Shown here: positions 6,839 to 62,111 of the stretch, one piece after another
How positions within the stretch are numbered: the first letter of the stretch is position 1
Layout: each line of letters opens with the position of its first letter
NCBI GenBank assembly: GCA_007375675.1
Contig: VMEU01000006.1
Coordinates: 1-62,220, forward strand
Length of the DNA: 62,220 bases
Direction: 5' to 3'
From: Parcubacteria group bacterium Greene0416_39
Lineage (GTDB): Bacteria > Patescibacteriota > Minisyncoccia > Minisyncoccales > UBA10102
Position numbers and translations under genes: made by a program
The notes under the pieces: model-generated
What the model was told of the DNA's origin: nothing
Databases searched by the model: none
What the model saw: only the letters and a program-made list of their open reading frames with translations

Positions 6839-6995
6839 ATGAATGAGTACAATCGACCTTTCCGGGTATTACGATAGTATACCAGGGGTCAAGGGAACTG
6901 TCCTGTGGATAACTTAAGATAATGCAAATTTACGAATGACTGCGAATGTACAAATTCGAGTATTCGCGGCATTCGTTTTCATTTGTAGATTTGCA

Positions 6996-7457
6996 TTATT
7001 TATTCTTTGCGGCCTCAGTCTTTGCAAACATCTCTGCAATTTCCTCTACTACGTCCTGCAAGGCCTTTGCAGCTTCCATATTTACCTCCTGTTTTACCTT
7101 AGAGCAGAGTTTTGCAGCTTTCCAAAATTTCTCATGCAAGCCAGGAAACATTACAAGATGCTCTGGTTTGAAGTAATCGGTCCAGAGGATCAGTAGTTCT
7201 TTCTTGCACAGTTGCGCGTGCTCCTCTTTCACTGCAATATATCGAACCAGAGAATTTGCTTTGGAGGGTACAGGACTGTACCCTCCTTTGCCCTCCGCTA
7301 TCTCTGCTTTTTCAATAAGTTCCACCATGCGCACCACGGTTTTTGCCGCAGTTCTCGCAGGCTCTGGGGTATAAATCCCGCATGGAATATCGCAGTGGGC
7401 ATACACCATCTTGGCAGGGAAAAACTTGTTCAAAAACGAAAACATAGAATACAGCAT
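6996..7457 (-). CDS. sodN: Nickel-containing superoxide dismutase
   Basis: HCDIPCGIYTPEPARTAAKTVVRMVELI matches the Ni-hook HCxxPCGxY signature; start set at MLYSMFSF (upstream ATGs overlap the divergent gene). Confidence 0.88.
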   Translation of the reverse strand: MLYSMFSFLNKFFPAKMVYAHCDIPCGIYTPEPARTAAKTVVRMVELIEKAEIAEGKGGYSPVPSKANSLVRYIAVKEEHAQLCKKELLILWTDYFKPEHLVMFPGLHEKFWKAAKLCSKVKQEVNMEAAKALQDVVEEIAEMFAKTEAAKNK

Positions 7458-8805: not shown

Positions 8806-9104
8806 ATTTACTCTGCCCCATTCTAAACCCCGCTCCACTTTTTTGCAAGAGAAACAGAATAACGTTACCCGTAAAAAGTGGGGCGGGGTAAACAAAAACA
8901 TGCCTTAAGTAAAGGCCTGCCTTGTTGTGTTAATCTCTGAAAGTTGTTCCTACCTCATCCTGCGAAACCTCGCAGGATAGGAGCCGACATATATAGGTTA
9001 TCGACTAACACCACACATTAGTGTGCAAATTTTACACACCAATAATGATCGACACTCAAAGAATGAAATGATCCACGCACAGCTTCCGCTACGCGTGCCT
9101 TGTT

Positions 9105-9947
9105 CATGTTTCTCCACGTCTTTCGACGGGCATGGACTATATCTTCATCCTGCATCTCTTTTGCAGGAGCCAACGTGTAGTCTCTACGGGGTCAAGAGTT
9201 TATATCGCAACGAAGGGTGGACAAATTTCCTGACAATGTTATTGAATTTTTCTTTCGATGCTTTCCCAAAATACAAACGGTATCCAGAATTATTCCACTG
9301 ATGCGTAGAATCCAATCCAAGGCTCTCCCTGAATATTTTCTGAACTACCTTAACTTGTTTGAGTGAAAGTCTCTGTACATTCAACAAAAGTCCATGATCT
9401 TTTCCATTTTGTCCTTTTAACTTTCCTCCATCATCCATAAACCAAACAGCTAACACAATGGGATGCCTTAAGAATATACCAAGATCTTTTGGTAGAATCT
9501 TTCTCCCACGTCTATAGAAAACTTTATGCCACCTTGTAAGCTCTGGGTGGCTTATGGTTCGAAATCTCCAAGAGCTTGTCTTTGCCTGGAATTTGGGTTT
9601 TGAGAAAACCCAGTTCTCAAAAACTTTATATTTCCACCATAAGTAAGCTTTCTGTCTCTCTCCATGTCCGATCTGAAGTCTCCAGTTTGTTTCCCATCCG
9701 TTGGGCAGCAAACACGCATCCCCCAATAAGGTTCCAAAAAGAACCCTCTCTTGGTATGGAGTGAACCGATTGAGATTTTCTCTAAAATCCCTAAGGGCTC
9801 TTGAATTTGTGTTAACTCTTCTTCCGACTTCCCTCGGTATTACCTTCATTCATTCATTTTATCACAAAATGAATAGGAGGGCTCCACCGATACAGTTAGA
9901 TTTTTCTACCCCTTCTCAAGGGTAGGTCGCAAAGTCCTCGTTGGACC
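9105..9947 (-). mobile_element. Group I intron in 16S at about E. coli 1498/1499
   Basis: Exon AAGUCGU | intron | AACAAGG; 5' exon U, intron 3' G; GAAGATATAGTCC and GACCCCGTAGAGACTA core motifs. Confidence 0.88.
9184..9849 (-). CDS. LAGLIDADG homing endonuclease (16S intron at 1498)
   Basis: 221 aa; LFGTLLGDACLL and LAVWFMDDGG motifs. Confidence 0.88.
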   Translation of the reverse strand: MKVIPREVGRRVNTNSRALRDFRENLNRFTPYQERVLFGTLLGDACLLPNGWETNWRLQIGHGERQKAYLWWKYKVFENWVFSKPKFQAKTSSWRFRTISHPELTRWHKVFYRRGRKILPKDLGIFLRHPIVLAVWFMDDGGKLKGQNGKDHGLLLNVQRLSLKQVKVVQKIFRESLGLDSTHQWNNSGYRLYFGKASKEKFNNIVRKFVHPSLRYKLLTP

Positions 9948-10032
9948 ACGACTTAGCCCCTCTCACCGAGCCCAGCTTATTTACCCTTGCGGGCACTTTC
10001 GGCTGTTCCCGGCTCGCTTGGCTTGACGGGCG

Positions 10033-10872
10033 AATATTTTCTACGAACTTAGAATTGACGTTCCCATCGCGCCTGCGGATTTCCCGCACGCGACGAGCTC
10101 TAGTGCATCTGCTGTTTTAAAGCATACAGATTTGCTAACCCTATTTTGGTCAAATGTTCTCCCTTCTTAATTCTTTTCATCAAATCGCAGAAAATTCTGA
10201 AGTCTTTCAGCTTAGATTTTAATCGCAATCGGTATCGCCTAAAGAAAGGAACGATAATTTTCTCCAAATCCTTTCTATTCGCTACCTCATAGCGATAGCA
10301 ATTCTGATGATTCTTTCGTTTATCCACTTGGAAGTAGACATTTCCACAGCGAAAGAACTCTTTAAGCTTATAGAGAATATCTTTATCCCTTTCAATAAGC
10401 TTAAGATAGAATCGAGGTTCAACTTTGACTCTTCTTTTTACTTGTGTTTGTATCTGAGGATTCTTCACGTACACCGTAAAGCTTCCTTCCCCATCTACAA
10501 GCCCAAGAATGTAATCAGGAGTTAACATAATTAGAGAAAGTCCTTCCCCTTGCGGGTACTATGACTTAGCTGACTTCTGACGCTGCGTAAGTTCATTATA
10601 TCTCACATCCTGTGAAATAACAACGTCAGATCTCCTCGGGTTACTCAGTACTCTATTCCAGGCATCCTAGATGGACTTTCATTCTAACCTTCCTCATCCT
10701 CACCGCCTGTAATGAGTCGGTCATCCATTGTTTTTCTAGGCTGTCTTTTGCCGCCAGGTCCTTCGCTTGCCATCTCGCGATGGCAAACTACCTTTTGGCT
10801 ACGTCCCGAAGGCGTACATCGGGAGTGCGGATTTGAACCGCACAGAATACTAAGCTGCCGAGCGCTTTTATT
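10033..10872 (-). mobile_element. Group II-like intron in 16S at about E. coli 1399/1400
   Basis: Exon GCACUCAC | intron | CGCCCGUC; GTGCGG motif 29 nt inside the intron; AGAAGTCAGCTAAGTCATAGTACCCGCAAGGGGAAGGACTT preceding the ORF resembles group II ORF-proximal sequence; no group I U/G splice rule; domain V not confidently identified. Confidence 0.6.
10100..10528 (-). CDS. LAGLIDADG endonuclease, single-motif type (16S intron at 1399)
   Basis: 142 aa starting TPDYILGLVDGEGSFTVYV. Confidence 0.85.
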   Translation of the reverse strand: MLTPDYILGLVDGEGSFTVYVKNPQIQTQVKRRVKVEPRFYLKLIERDKDILYKLKEFFRCGNVYFQVDKRKNHQNCYRYEVANRKDLEKIIVPFFRRYRLRLKSKLKDFRIFCDLMKRIKKGEHLTKIGLANLYALKQQMH

Positions 10873-11342
10873 GTGAGTGCAGGACCCAGGAACATATTCC
10901 GCGCCACATGGCTGATTGGCGCGTACTAGCGATTCCGACTTCATGAGGTCGAGTTTCAGACCTCAATCCGAACTGAGGAATAGTTTAAGGGATTAGCTCC
11001 GCGTTGCCGCCTTGCAACCCTCTGTCTATTCCATTGTAACATGTGTGCCGCCCAGGATATCAAAGGGCCACGCTGACTTGGCGTCATCCCCGCCTTCCTC
11101 TTGGTTGTCCCAAGCAGTTCTCTGTGACACATAAAACACAGAGTAGGGGTTGCGCATGTTGCCCGATTTAACGGAGCGCCTCAAGGTACATGCTGACGAC
11201 AGCCGTGCAGCACCTGGACTAATGTCCTTGTGGGTGGCCCCGACTTTCGTCGGGGTTTCATTAGTCTGTCAAACCCTGGTAAGGTTCTTCGGTTGTTGAC
11301 GAATTAAGCCACATGTTCCACCGCTTGTGTGGGTCCCCGCCT

Positions 11343-11374
<32 letters not shown>

Positions 11375-11470
11375 TCCCAGGCGGGATGCTTAACGCGTTA
11401 GCTTCGCCACGTGAAGGGTCGACACTTCACATAGCCAGCATCCAATGTTTAGGGCGTGGACTACAAGGGT

Positions 11471-12449
11471 CATCTTGTAGAATTTTTACTATCCGTGTTG
11501 CCACGGAGATCGGACTATATCACTTTCTGAAATCGCTTATACCTTGATTTTTTCTCTGCAAGATATTTTTCTATCACGTCACGAGAAAACGATGTTTTCT
11601 CGACGACTTCAGAAATCCAGCGTTCTTGTAATTGGGAATCTTTGTAAAGAAGAATAACTTTGGGTAGTATACTTGCCACTGGAACATACGGTAGAATGAT
11701 GCGTAAGAACTTTTTGAGTTCTTCGCTCGAACGGATCCATAATCGGTAATACTCACGCTTTGTCCCGTCACGCTCTCGAACAATCTTCGCAATCGCGACT
11801 TTAACTTTCCAGACCTTCTGCAGGTACTGTGCTAAAATCTTTTGGTCTTCGAGCAGAAACGGGTCCGTGCAAAACACTCCGCGTTTTCCATTACCAATCA
11901 ACGAACCATCATCAAGCCACCACACCGCCAACGAAAGCGGTGTCAGCTGGTTAAGCCATTTTCGCTTAATGACTAAGCGATTATGCTTATGGGTCAGCTG
12001 GTATAATTCACTAAGTTGCTCTAGTGCTAGGCTCTGATATCGCAACATTTCTCCACCATAGCCATTCGGTTCTTGCTTCCACCAGCATTTTTCTCCGGAA
12101 ATCTCTTTCAACTGTTCAACTTTCCAGAAGAAATAATCCTGTTGGAGAACCGAGTGACGAAAAGAAAAACGTGCGTTCTTGTAGGGTTTTTGGATCCTTA
12201 AAGATCCGTCACCAAGCAAAGAACCCAGCATAACTTCTTTACATCGATCCGACAAAAATGAATGCTTTGTATTCATTTTCTATCTTCTTACTTACATAGT
12301 CTCTACGGGGTCAATACCTCTATCGAGGCTGACTTCCCTCGGGATTGTCCGTTCGACTGAACGGAGTTCCCCGATATAGCTAGATGCGCACTCCGATGTT
12401 GCCACCGAAGGGGACACCATTCGTCTCGTTTCATACGAGACAAGGATTT
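11471..12449 (-). mobile_element. Group I intron in 16S 790 loop (between U793 and A794)
   Basis: Exon GGATTAGAT | intron | ACCCTTGTAGTCC; U/G rule; GATATAGTCCGATCTCC and GACCCCGTAGAGACTA core motifs. Confidence 0.9.
11515..12276 (-). CDS. LAGLIDADG homing endonuclease (16S intron at 793)
   Basis: 253 aa; VMLGSLLGDGSLRIQ and LAVWWLDDGS motifs. Confidence 0.87.
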   Translation of the reverse strand: MNTKHSFLSDRCKEVMLGSLLGDGSLRIQKPYKNARFSFRHSVLQQDYFFWKVEQLKEISGEKCWWKQEPNGYGGEMLRYQSLALEQLSELYQLTHKHNRLVIKRKWLNQLTPLSLAVWWLDDGSLIGNGKRGVFCTDPFLLEDQKILAQYLQKVWKVKVAIAKIVRERDGTKREYYRLWIRSSEELKKFLRIILPYVPVASILPKVILLYKDSQLQERWISEVVEKTSFSRDVIEKYLAEKKSRYKRFQKVI

Positions 12450-13188
12450 ATCTAATCCTTTTTGCTCCCCACGCTTTCGTCCCTCACCGTCAGGGTTGCC
12501 CCAGCTGAATGCTTTCGCCTTTGGTGTTCTTCTCGATATCAACGGATTTCACCCCTCCACCGAGAATTCCATCAGCCTCTAACACCCTCTAGCCCGCCAG
12601 TTTTCCCTGCAGTTCCAAGGTTGAGCCCTGGACATTTAACAAGAAACTTGGCGGGCCGGCTACGGACGCTTTACGCCCAGTAAATCCGGATAACGCTTGG
12701 AGGCTCTGTTTTACCGCTACTGCTGGCACAGAGTTAGTCCCTCCTTATTCTCAGGGTACCTTCTTCCCTCGATTGCTCTCGGGATTATTCCCCTGCAAAA
12801 GTGGTTTACAACCCGAAGGCCTTCATCCCACACGCGGTGTCGCTGGATCAGGGTTTCCCCCATTGTCCAATATTCTCGGCTGCTGCCTCCCGTAGGAGTA
12901 TGGCCCGTATCTCAATGCCATCGTTGGGGAACGCGCTCTCACGCCCCCTACCCGTCATAGCCTTGGTAGGCTTTTACCCTGCCAACTAGCTGATAGGACG
13001 CAGACCGCTCCCAAAGTGGATTACTCCTTTACCCTTCGATTGCTCTCAGGGACCATCGGGAATTAGCTCCGCTTTCGCGGAGTTATGCCCGTCTTTGGGG
13101 TACGTATCTACGTGTTACTAACTCGTTTGCCGCTGCTCCCTCGGTCTTGCGACCTCGGGAACCGCTTGACTTGCATGCCTTATCCACA

Positions 13189-13224
<36 letters not shown>

Positions 13225-13309
13225 TGGCTAAACTTGAGAGTAGGAACAACTCTCAGAAATCAACTGTATTCAATTGACAATGTCCTACCCCCGCGGAAAA
13301 AGTCATTCA

Positions 13310-37940: not shown

Positions 37941-38999
37941 TTACTTAGCAAGAATATACGCGGACGAAGGCCCTTTGCCAACCTGGCTAATCATTTTTAG
38001 TTTCTTAAGTTTTTGCAGGCATAATTGAGCTGTCCTTTTAGGACATCCAAGAACATCCATTACGTCCTGCACCGTAATCTTACTCACTTGATCTAAAAAT
38101 TCAAGGATTTTCATCTGGTCTTTATTAAGATAAATCTGGGATGTGATGTTTTGATCAATTTTTCGCAAAGCGAGAGTGGCAACCTTGGCCTTTACGTTAT
38201 CAATTTCCTCTTTGAAGCCACGCACGAAGTACTCGAGCCAGCGAGTAAAATCAATCTTCCTTTCTTCGTAGGTTCTGCCCAAATTGATAGCCTTGTAGTA
38301 TTTTGACCGATCTGTATTATAGTAATCCTCCAGCGCAAAGAGCCGCCTAAAATCGTAGCCCCGAGCGTAGAGAACTAAAGTTGCAAGCGCCCGGGCGGTT
38401 CGGCCATTACCGTCGGCAAACGGGTGAATAGCTGCAAATTCCGCATGCGCTATGCCAGCGGCAATAATCGGGTTGACCCCATTCTTATCGCTTTTCTGTA
38501 TCCACTCTACCAAATCTCTCATAAGTTGAGGGACCTTCTTAGCCTCGGGTGCCGTATAGACGGTCTCTTGCGGCATGCCGAGCCGTCTCCTTACGACATG
38601 CACAGGGCCCTTCCTATAGTGGCCGGATTGTTCTTCAGGCAAGGTCTTGTTGGTAACTAATGCATGAATTTTTAATATTGCCTTTTCGGTAATAGGCAGT
38701 TTTCTCTCAACCATCTGGCTGATATAACGCAATGCTTTAATATAATTCTCAACTTCATATATATCGCGCGCGGGCGCATCAATTTTTTGATGCCCAAGAA
38801 TCGCCTCCACTTGATTGAGATTTAGCATGTTGCCTTCAATGTGCGTAGAGCTGTGCGTCATTCGGATCAACGCCTGACGCCTTAGTCGAAGCTCTTGTTT
38901 TGGAAGAAGTTTCGCACGCCCAATCACCACCCTTGCCTCGGCTATGGCGGTAAGCATATTGAGAATTATATTGGTAAGCCTGTAGCGCAGATGTAACAT
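37941..38999 (-). CDS. Fic family protein (adenylyltransferase) with winged-helix C-terminus
   Basis: HPFADGNGRTAR Fic motif; upstream THSSTHIEGN inhibitory-helix-like motif. Confidence 0.93.
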   Translation of the reverse strand: MLHLRYRLTNIILNMLTAIAEARVVIGRAKLLPKQELRLRRQALIRMTHSSTHIEGNMLNLNQVEAILGHQKIDAPARDIYEVENYIKALRYISQMVERKLPITEKAILKIHALVTNKTLPEEQSGHYRKGPVHVVRRRLGMPQETVYTAPEAKKVPQLMRDLVEWIQKSDKNGVNPIIAAGIAHAEFAAIHPFADGNGRTARALATLVLYARGYDFRRLFALEDYYNTDRSKYYKAINLGRTYEERKIDFTRWLEYFVRGFKEEIDNVKAKVATLALRKIDQNITSQIYLNKDQMKILEFLDQVSKITVQDVMDVLGCPKRTAQLCLQKLKKLKMISQVGKGPSSAYILAK

Positions 39000-39186
39000 A
39001 TATACGTATTATAACGCCCATTACATAATCGCGCAAGTATCGCGCAATTAATCGCGCAAGGTAAACTCAAAAGGTATCAATCTCTCCCCTTCCTCATGTC
39101 GTGTTGTGTTCCAACCATGCCGACGGATAATTTCATAACAAATCTTTGTTGGTGCCATACGGATGTATTAATAATATCACACTTGA

Positions 39187-61166: not shown

Positions 61167-62111
61167 CTATAAAAATTCAATTTCTTCTTCCAAGTTCACA
61201 GAAAACCGCTTTTTTATTGCCCTCTTGACCTTTTCAATCAGCGTTCTCACGTCTTTGGCCCTTGCTCCGCCCAAGTTCACCATGTAGTTGGGGTGTTTTT
61301 CTGAAACCTGCGCGCCTCCTTGTCTTAGACCCTTCAATCCTGCCTGATGCACAAGAAATGCGGTAGGAACAACAGGAAACGGATCAACTTTCACGGCAGG
61401 CTTCACAAAATCCTGCAGTTTCAATGGGATCAATTTCAAATCGCAGTTTTTAAAAATGCTCCCGGCGTTGGGAAACTCAAGAGGATGGCGCTCTTTGCGA
61501 TAGCGAATGTGGTCTTGGGCCGCCTCCTCTATAAGTTTTTTGTTCCCTTTCTTCAGCTGGAAAACCGCAGAAAGAACAATCCATTTCTTGTGTTTAAAAA
61601 TGGAAGAGCGATAGGAAAACTGACACTCTTTATTTGAAAGTTTTCTAATCCCTCCTTTTTCGTCAACGCACTCAACAGAAACCAGGGAATCTTTCACCTC
61701 TCCTCCAAACGCGCCCGCGTTGCCCCGCACTGCTCCTCCTACAGTTCCTGGCAATCCGCCTGCCCATTCCAAACCTGCCAGTCCCTTTTTGCCTGCTGCA
61801 AGAACAATTGCAGGGAAAGAAACGCCAGCTTCAGCATACAATCTGGTATTTAGTATTTGGTATTTAGTATTTAGTATTTTAATTACAAGGCCATTGAACC
61901 CTTGGTCTGAAATAAGGACATTGCTCCCCTCTCCCAAAATAAAAAAGGATATGCGCAATTTCTTTGCGGCGCCTGCCGCTTTTAGAATATCTCTGCTTGA
62001 TTTTGCAACAAAAAAATACCGCGCTTTCCCGCCAATCTGAAACGTCGTATGGGGAGCAAGCGGTACATCTTTGCACACTCCTGGCAACAGCTTCTCAAGC
62101 TTTCCTATCAT
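61167..62111 (-). CDS. murB: UDP-N-acetylenolpyruvoylglucosamine reductase
   Basis: NVLISDQGFNGLVIKI...EWAGGLPGTVGGAVRGNAGAFGGEVKDSL...FPNAGSIFKN. Confidence 0.95.
   Translation of the reverse strand: MIGKLEKLLPGVCKDVPLAPHTTFQIGGKARYFFVAKSSRDILKAAGAAKKLRISFFILGEGSNVLISDQGFNGLVIKILNTKYQILNTRLYAEAGVSFPAIVLAAGKKGLAGLEWAGGLPGTVGGAVRGNAGAFGGEVKDSLVSVECVDEKGGIRKLSNKECQFSYRSSIFKHKKWIVLSAVFQLKKGNKKLIEEAAQDHIRYRKERHPLEFPNAGSIFKNCDLKLIPLKLQDFVKPAVKVDPFPVVPTAFLVHQAGLKGLRQGGAQVSEKHPNYMVNLGGARAKDVRTLIEKVKRAIKKRFSVNLEEEIEFL
61843..61880. repeat. TAAATACYAAATACTAAATACCAGA-type repeat inside murB
   Basis: CTGGTATTTAGTATTTGGTATTTAGTATTTAGTATTTT; related runs at 17965-18028 and 20690-20722. Confidence 0.8.

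Follow-up and report, generated by a model that had tools for sequence, protein, structure and literature searches.

Absence of the anti-Shine-Dalgarno sequence from the 16S rRNA of a Patescibacteria genome and its order, with sequence features of start sites that suggest initiation independent of Shine-Dalgarno pairing

Few sequences in bacterial rRNA are as conserved as the anti-Shine-Dalgarno (anti-SD) sequence CCUCC in the 3' tail of 16S rRNA, with which most bacterial ribosomes locate the starts of genes. Bacteria noted for leaderless mRNAs, such as Deinococcus-Thermus and Mycobacterium, keep this sequence. Flavobacteriia, Mycoplasma, Carsonella and Hodgkinia have nevertheless been found to lack the anti-SD or to carry variants of it (PMC6107228, PMC10783764). 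In the Flavobacteriia and Weeksellaceae (Chryseobacterium, Elizabethkingia and Riemerella, with UCUCA), an intact helix 45 is followed by a degenerate CCUCC position in which the last C has become A, genes lack Shine-Dalgarno (SD) motifs, and the state is clade-wide (PMC6107228, PMC10783764, PMC8710568). Mycoplasma, Carsonella and Hodgkinia combine small genomes with the joint loss of CCUCC and SD motifs (PMC6107228). The Bacteroidia have kept the anti-SD, occluded by bS21, bS18 and bS6, and select starts on SD-less mRNAs by context and low structure (PMC6847099, PMC9976891). In leaderless-mRNA bacteria, a -10 element lies directly ahead of the start codon (described in part in PMC5397173).

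The system examined in this study, from a member of the Patescibacteria, shares features with each of these groups and differs from all of them. It has the intact helix 45, the degenerate position, the SD-less genes and the clade-wide distribution of the Flavobacteriia and Weeksellaceae, and likewise ends the motif in ..CA (93% of order tails), but it belongs to another phylum, its tail is a U-rich CAUUUU, most of the order has no detected bS21, and an extended -10 element predicts leaderless mRNAs. It resembles Mycoplasma, Carsonella and Hodgkinia in its small genome and the joint loss, although the loss extends over an order that is a diverse clade of many families, occurs at 45% GC in the genome studied, and happened several times independently in one class. 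The SD-less mRNAs and the reliance on context and low structure recall the Bacteroidia, whereas CCUCC itself is gone, bS21 is undetected and the favored context is U at -1, not A at -3/-6. The position of the -10 element is that of the leaderless-mRNA bacteria, which retain CCUCC, while the leaderless prediction in this order accompanies its loss. Relative to the known anti-SD losses, the order-wide extent, the repetition within a class and the association with leaderless promoters and a U-AUG-A start context appear to be new; a literature search, which missed most of the subscription literature, found no prior report of order-wide anti-SD loss in Patescibacteria.

The window (the whole 62,220-nt stretch of DNA analyzed) was studied together with its own source genome (G000), which comprises 517,233 bases in 14 contigs, is 97.5% complete and has a GC content of 45%. 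A single 16S rRNA gene is present in this assembly, on the minus strand of the window, and alignment to intron-free relatives and Pfam searches resolve it into four exons and three homing-endonuclease introns, every one of which contains a LAGLIDADG ORF. Exon 1 (12450-13230; Rfam RF00177 and the alignment, with the exact boundary set by reading) ends in ..GATTAGAT, so that the 5' exon terminates in U. Intron 1 (11471-12449) is group I-like and ends in G, with a weak RF00028 match at 11491-11760 (E 0.016) and a LAGLIDADG_2 ORF at 11515-12276 (PF03161, E 4e-33). Exon 2 (10873-11470) and intron 2 (10033-10872) were placed by the alignment, the latter containing a LAGLIDADG_1 ORF (10100-10528; Pfam) and returning only weak group II-like Rfam matches (D1D4-1 and D1D4-3) despite that ORF. 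Exon 3 (9948-10032; alignment, RF00177 piece 9946-10030) covers the helix 44 region and ends in AAGTCGT. Intron 3 (9105-9947), again group I-like (RF00028 match 9114-9280, E 2e-4) and with a LAGLIDADG_2 ORF at 9184-9849 (PF03161, E 8e-39), is inserted after E. coli U1498, in the decoding site, 1 nt ahead of AACAAGG; an intron occupies this position in an order-mate (L022) as well. Exon 4 (9069-9104; direct reading, alignment and the spliced sequence) consists of AACAAGG, helix 45 (9097-9074) and GGATCA (9074-9069), and the spliced 16S measures 1500 nt up to GGATCA. Rfam places the 3' end of the gene at 10808, which is incorrect, as it misses the last exons on the far side of two introns. The pre-16S processing stem reported in the first-pass annotation proved to be real, its 5' side (13240-13262) and 3' side (8935-8957) forming a duplex of -29 kcal/mol, both on the minus strand. 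Two further LAGLIDADG genes (1403-2083 and 2313-2918) adjoin the 23S and 5S genes; both begin MDNTVGSL and both have TATAAT just upstream.

Direct reading of the minus strand gives an intact helix 45, CACGCGUAGC-GGAA-GCUGUGCGUG at 9097-9074, and then GGATCA (9074-9069) followed by TTTCATTCTTTGAGTGTCGATC; in RNA form, helix 45 and GGAUCA are followed by UUUCAUUCUUUG. The replacement tail, UUUCAUUCUUUGAGUGUC at 9051-9068 where CCUCCUUU is expected, is known from this reading and from the tails of relatives, and its mature 3' end is a prediction. CCTCC does not occur on the minus strand from 9104 to 8935, that is, up to the pre-16S stem. CCUCC is therefore missing from the 16S rRNA of this genome, and its absence is confirmed as real and not the product of an assembly error or a hidden intron. 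The opposing explanation, that mature rRNA carries CCUCC after all, concealed by one more intron, by misassembly or in another copy of the 16S, draws on the unusually intron-rich 16S and on an assembly of 14 contigs that is 97.5% complete; we regard it as extremely improbable, since helix 45 leads directly into a CCUCC-less tail in intron-free relatives, one of which (L014, same family) aligns through tail and spacer (window 9104-9017) without a break at 79% identity, since the genome has one 16S, and since the tails of the order agree. The first-pass annotation had described the CCUCC-less tail after a perfect helix 45, had thought a further intron unlikely, and had named a second 16S copy and misassembly among the points on which its reading could fail; it was correct in the first two respects, one 16S only was found, and misassembly is excluded by the order-mates, all of which lack CCTCC where helix 45 is readable.

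It had also proposed a comparison with the 16S tails of relatives, and this established that the CCUCC-less state is the rule for the order. Order members with a readable helix 45 yielded 42 distinct tails, the window's included, and none of the 42, among them that of a single-contig genome of the same family (G022), has CCTCC within 40 nt. These tails follow the consensus YUWCAUUUU, with [CT]T[AT] followed at positions 4-9 by C (76%), A (93%), U (90%), U (90%), U (81%) and U (71%), and contain almost no G; named records with the same type of tail include Nealsonbacteria, Wildermuthbacteria and other Paceibacterota. The pattern of helix 45 plus GGAWCA was found in 116 of the 286 class genomes sampled. 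CCTCC had no match in the 22 order genomes sampled, 12 of them with the helix 45 pattern, and it followed next in 58 of the 104 genomes with the pattern outside the order; some families of the wider class have retained CCUCC. Intermediate tails (TCTCC, ACTCC, CCTTC, CCTCA and ATTCT) also occur. In a 16S tree, the 19 order members, all without CCTCC, form one well supported clade, at least five changes of CCUCC state are required, and a single clade of CCTCC holders is rejected (p-AU 0.002). Because of this topology, the loss of CCUCC is, as judged from these sequences, old in the order and has taken place several times over in the class.

The conservation of CAUUUU suggests that the tail still has a function, possibly in assembling the 30S subunit or in maturing its 3' end. 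We propose a role of this kind because the tail is conserved and because it can fold with its flank into a precursor hairpin, both in the window and in relatives with changed sequences. In the window the predicted hairpin (9047-9073, minus strand; RNAfold, -5.8 kcal/mol) pairs GAUC (9073-9070) with GAUC (9050-9047) and CAUUC (9065-9061) with GAGUG (9057-9053), and comparison of own with swapped hairpin arms gave z of about -2 to -3 in CCUCC-less lineages by a statistic that ignores relatedness. It is possible that such a hairpin would hide the tail until maturation. In some class members (e.g. L085-L094, L217 and L241) the anti-SD position can pair with sequence that follows shortly after it (CCTCC TTTCTA GGGAG); where a lineage is without CCTCC, the downstream pairing partner is altered as well (ATTCTTTTAGGAAT, CCTCATTTAGAGG).

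To relate the rRNA to gene starts, genes were called with our own hexamer model, which is blind to upstream motifs, and all gene starts are those of this caller; SD-rewarding gene callers may misplace starts in such genomes. The gene sets were the whole of G000 (564 genes) and 400-kb parts of four class members. Two of these are without CCUCC, namely G022, from the family of G000, and G170, from a different order and with the tail ATTCTTTTAGG; the other two, G235 and G158, retain it. An SD motif was defined as GGAGG or AGGAG at -14 to -8, and a conserved gene as one present in at least three comparators. None of the 125 conserved genes of G000 bears the motif at SD distance, and it is found in 7 of 217 genes of intermediate conservation and 13 of 148 orphans; the corresponding counts in G022 are 0/80, 1/162 and 11/138. 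Among conserved genes of the CCUCC-keeping class members, the motif precedes 0/89 in G158 and 6/130 in G235. The E. coli control, with annotated starts, gave 26/107 by the same test and 67/107 by SD 4-mers. The earlier observation that most coding sequences of the window lack an SD motif thus extends to the conserved genes of the whole genome, and the first coding sequence, which had been taken as an exception, is murB (61167-62111) and does bear the motif, but it is one of about 20 such genes. An apparent depletion of SD 4-mers in conserved genes (3 vs 13.2 in the upstream background) mostly disappeared with composition-matched shuffles, and for that reason we claim only the absence of SD motifs and not their depletion. 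The programmed-frameshift motif of RF2 was found class-wide in 2 of 286 genomes and the reversed control also gave 2, which is uninformative either way; the release factor gene within the window is nearer RF1.

Genome-wide enrichment of GGAGG, which the first-pass annotation had held would speak against its reading, is weakly present, with 17 hits of GGAGG or AGGAG before operon-first genes against 2.5 expected, but neither conserved genes nor operon-internal genes (0 vs 4.9 expected) show it, so that the excess does not rescue SD use. This excess, together with that in G170 (39 hits before operon-first genes vs 2.1), could be taken to mean that SD-like purine motifs guide a subset of genes in the absence of CCUCC, by wobble pairing with the U-rich tail (e.g. 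AAGGAG/UUCUUU) or by contacts with ribosomal proteins. We consider this unlikely, because the motif sits on poorly conserved genes in both G000 and G022, because upstream regions have no excess complementarity to their own tail, and because several of the genes are biosynthetic and likely derived from SD-using donors. The SD-bearing genes of G022 and G000 include those for orotidine-phosphate decarboxylase, a phosphoribosyltransferase, DapA, PurC, PurE, a semialdehyde dehydrogenase, cytidine deaminase and prephenate dehydratase, biosynthetic and salvage enzymes of kinds that are patchily present in such genomes. Acquisition from SD-using donors is likely for several of them, as we infer from their functions and patchy distribution, and it is a likelier source than contamination, given that in G022 such genes sit within one 671-kb contig amid native genes. 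In G170 (L191-L210, L217 on C1), which is without CCUCC, the AGGAGG enrichment is strong and falls nearly entirely on orphans (30/156).

The new tail could in principle serve as an alternative anti-SD, its partner being a changed SD complementary to UUUCAUUCUUU or, order-wide, to CUACAUUUU. The order-wide conservation of the tail as ..CAUUUU, which is not random, and the alternative anti-SD UCUCA described in Weeksellaceae (PMC8710568) lend some appeal to this idea, which had also been raised for UUUCAUUCUUU in the window. It did not hold up and we consider it very unlikely: duplexes between the -20..-4 region and the genome's own tail had mean energies no better than those of dinucleotide shuffles in G000 (z +0.7, +1.0 and -1.9 by gene class) or in its family relative G022 (z +3.2, +0.4 and -1.1), k-mers complementary to the tail were not enriched upstream, and an unbiased k-mer search returned promoter words with no tail complements among them. 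Pairing of the tail CAUUUU with start codons in AAAAUG was also dropped, as starts prefer U, not A, at -1.

The words recovered by this unbiased search at -17..-4 (TATACT, TATAAT, GGTATA and GATAC) are those of an extended -10 promoter, and for operon-first genes expectation maximization (EM) arrived at tTGGTAnAaT, the hexamer lying at -12. The pattern TGnTAnnnT with its hexamer at -15..-11 occurs 34 times against 1.9 expected (p 1.6e-30), is accompanied by a T-rich -35 at a 17-bp spacer, and remains in excess at starts without a nearby alternative (17 vs 0.7 expected). The excess of the two -10 patterns amounts to about 22% of operon-first and spaced genes and 10% of internal genes, which is a lower bound. 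As a hexamer at -15..-11 would place the transcription start at or beside the AUG, many promoter-proximal genes are predicted to have leaderless mRNAs. Examples in the window, both on the minus strand, are TATAAT at 39008-39013, whose hexamer starts at -14 from the start codon of a Fic-family gene (37941-38999; Pfam), and TGGTATAAT at 2092-2097, likewise at -14 from the LAGLIDADG gene at 1403-2083 (Pfam); both are predicted to give near-leaderless mRNAs. Leaderless initiation cannot be the whole story, because most start sites are without a strict -10 element. U occupies -1 at 47% of start codons but at 23% of internal Met codons (p 1.6e-22), A occupies +4 at 45% and 29%, respectively, and local structure is weak around starts. 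Both preferences are seen in all five class genomes, whereas E. coli has no preference at -1 (U, 20%). The U ahead of a leaderless start could merely be the pyrimidine at -1 of the transcription start, yet operon-internal genes are also high (42%). Many messages seem to begin at the start codon or to present it in an open stretch. Leaderless promoters and U at -1 are found in CCUCC-keeping class members too, and are thus not specific to the loss.

An independent view of upstream sequence is provided by a palindromic, REPIN-like element of about 80 nt, of which G000 has 24 full copies, all intergenic (window 6919-6998; also, e.g., C12:45715-45794 and C11:21181-21260). Eighteen of the 24 begin near the upstream stop and end 3-7 nt ahead of a start codon, and they precede several ribosomal protein genes (S19, S3, L16, S17 and L11 by their N-termini), at matching sites of which the gaps in relatives are mostly <40 nt. 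The sampled parts of G022, G158 and G170 contained no such palindrome and that of G235 contained one. Because these repeats were inserted 3-7 nt before ribosomal protein starts, the sequence further upstream must be dispensable there; core genes appear to withstand the exchange of all sequence beyond about -7, in keeping with SD-free initiation. A Y1-transposase (IS200-like) gene lies at C12:12666-13319 and a similar gene at C5:11911-12630.

The explanation that we consider quite probable is that the ancestor of the order, which comprises the relatives of Nealsonbacteria and Wildermuthbacteria, lost CCUCC after core genes of the class had moved to SD-independent initiation. SD-independence probably came first and the decay of CCUCC followed repeatedly, because leaderless promoters, U at -1 and SD-less core genes are also found in lineages that keep CCUCC. 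Under this proposal, 30S or 70S ribosomes would choose the start by direct recognition of AUG by initiator tRNA. Many promoter-proximal genes would be read in this way from leaderless mRNAs. Other genes would present an exposed AUG in a U-AUG-A context, whose U at -1 could form a pair with A37 of that tRNA; help there may come from S1, IF3 and, where genes overlap, translational coupling. The new tail, ..CAUUUU, would not pair with mRNA, and its conservation would more likely serve 30S assembly or 3' end maturation. The view of the first-pass annotation that initiation may not rest on SD pairing is supported by the lack of CCUCC, the SD-less core genes, the leaderless promoters and the non-SD start context. 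A broader claim, for which we see about even chances, is that the whole order and further lineages of the class independently discarded rRNA-mRNA pairing and initiate by direct AUG recognition, both on leaderless mRNAs and in an extended U-AUG-A context that the initiator tRNA reads. In that case SD-free initiation would be the ground state in much of the Patescibacteria, and CCUCC no more than a relic in the lineages that keep it. If the explanation is true, E. coli ribosomes that carry the tail GGAUCAUUUCAUUC are predicted to lose SD-dependent but not leaderless translation. With many independent losses beside kept copies, this large and uncultured group permits comparative tests of questions that are usually argued from E. 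coli mutants, including what the loss requires, what substitutes for the SD, and which parts of the ribosome and its partners (bS21, Era, initiator tRNA) change along with it.

With respect to this machinery, G000 encodes an S1-domain protein of 370 aa with several S1 repeats, as well as IF3 and KsgA. A search for bS21 had no match in G000 and succeeded in 3 of 20 relatives, although a very divergent bS21 could escape detection; a class-wide tie between loss of bS21 and loss of CCUCC was rejected, as bS21 occurs outside the order in many genomes of both CCUCC states. None of the 20 class genomes tested had an Era match that reached the family cut-off, consistent with a review in which most of the CPR is without Era (PMC10582724). 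As Era binds GAUCACCUCC in E. coli (PMC10582724), its loss would lift one constraint on CCUCC. The initiator tRNA gene was considered as a further correlate of the loss and does not track it. Position 33 of tRNA is near-universally U; the initiator tRNA of G000 (C11:15035-15107) and that of G022 have the anticodon loop CCCAUAA, with C33, and about 19 of the 64 class genomes with a match show the same.
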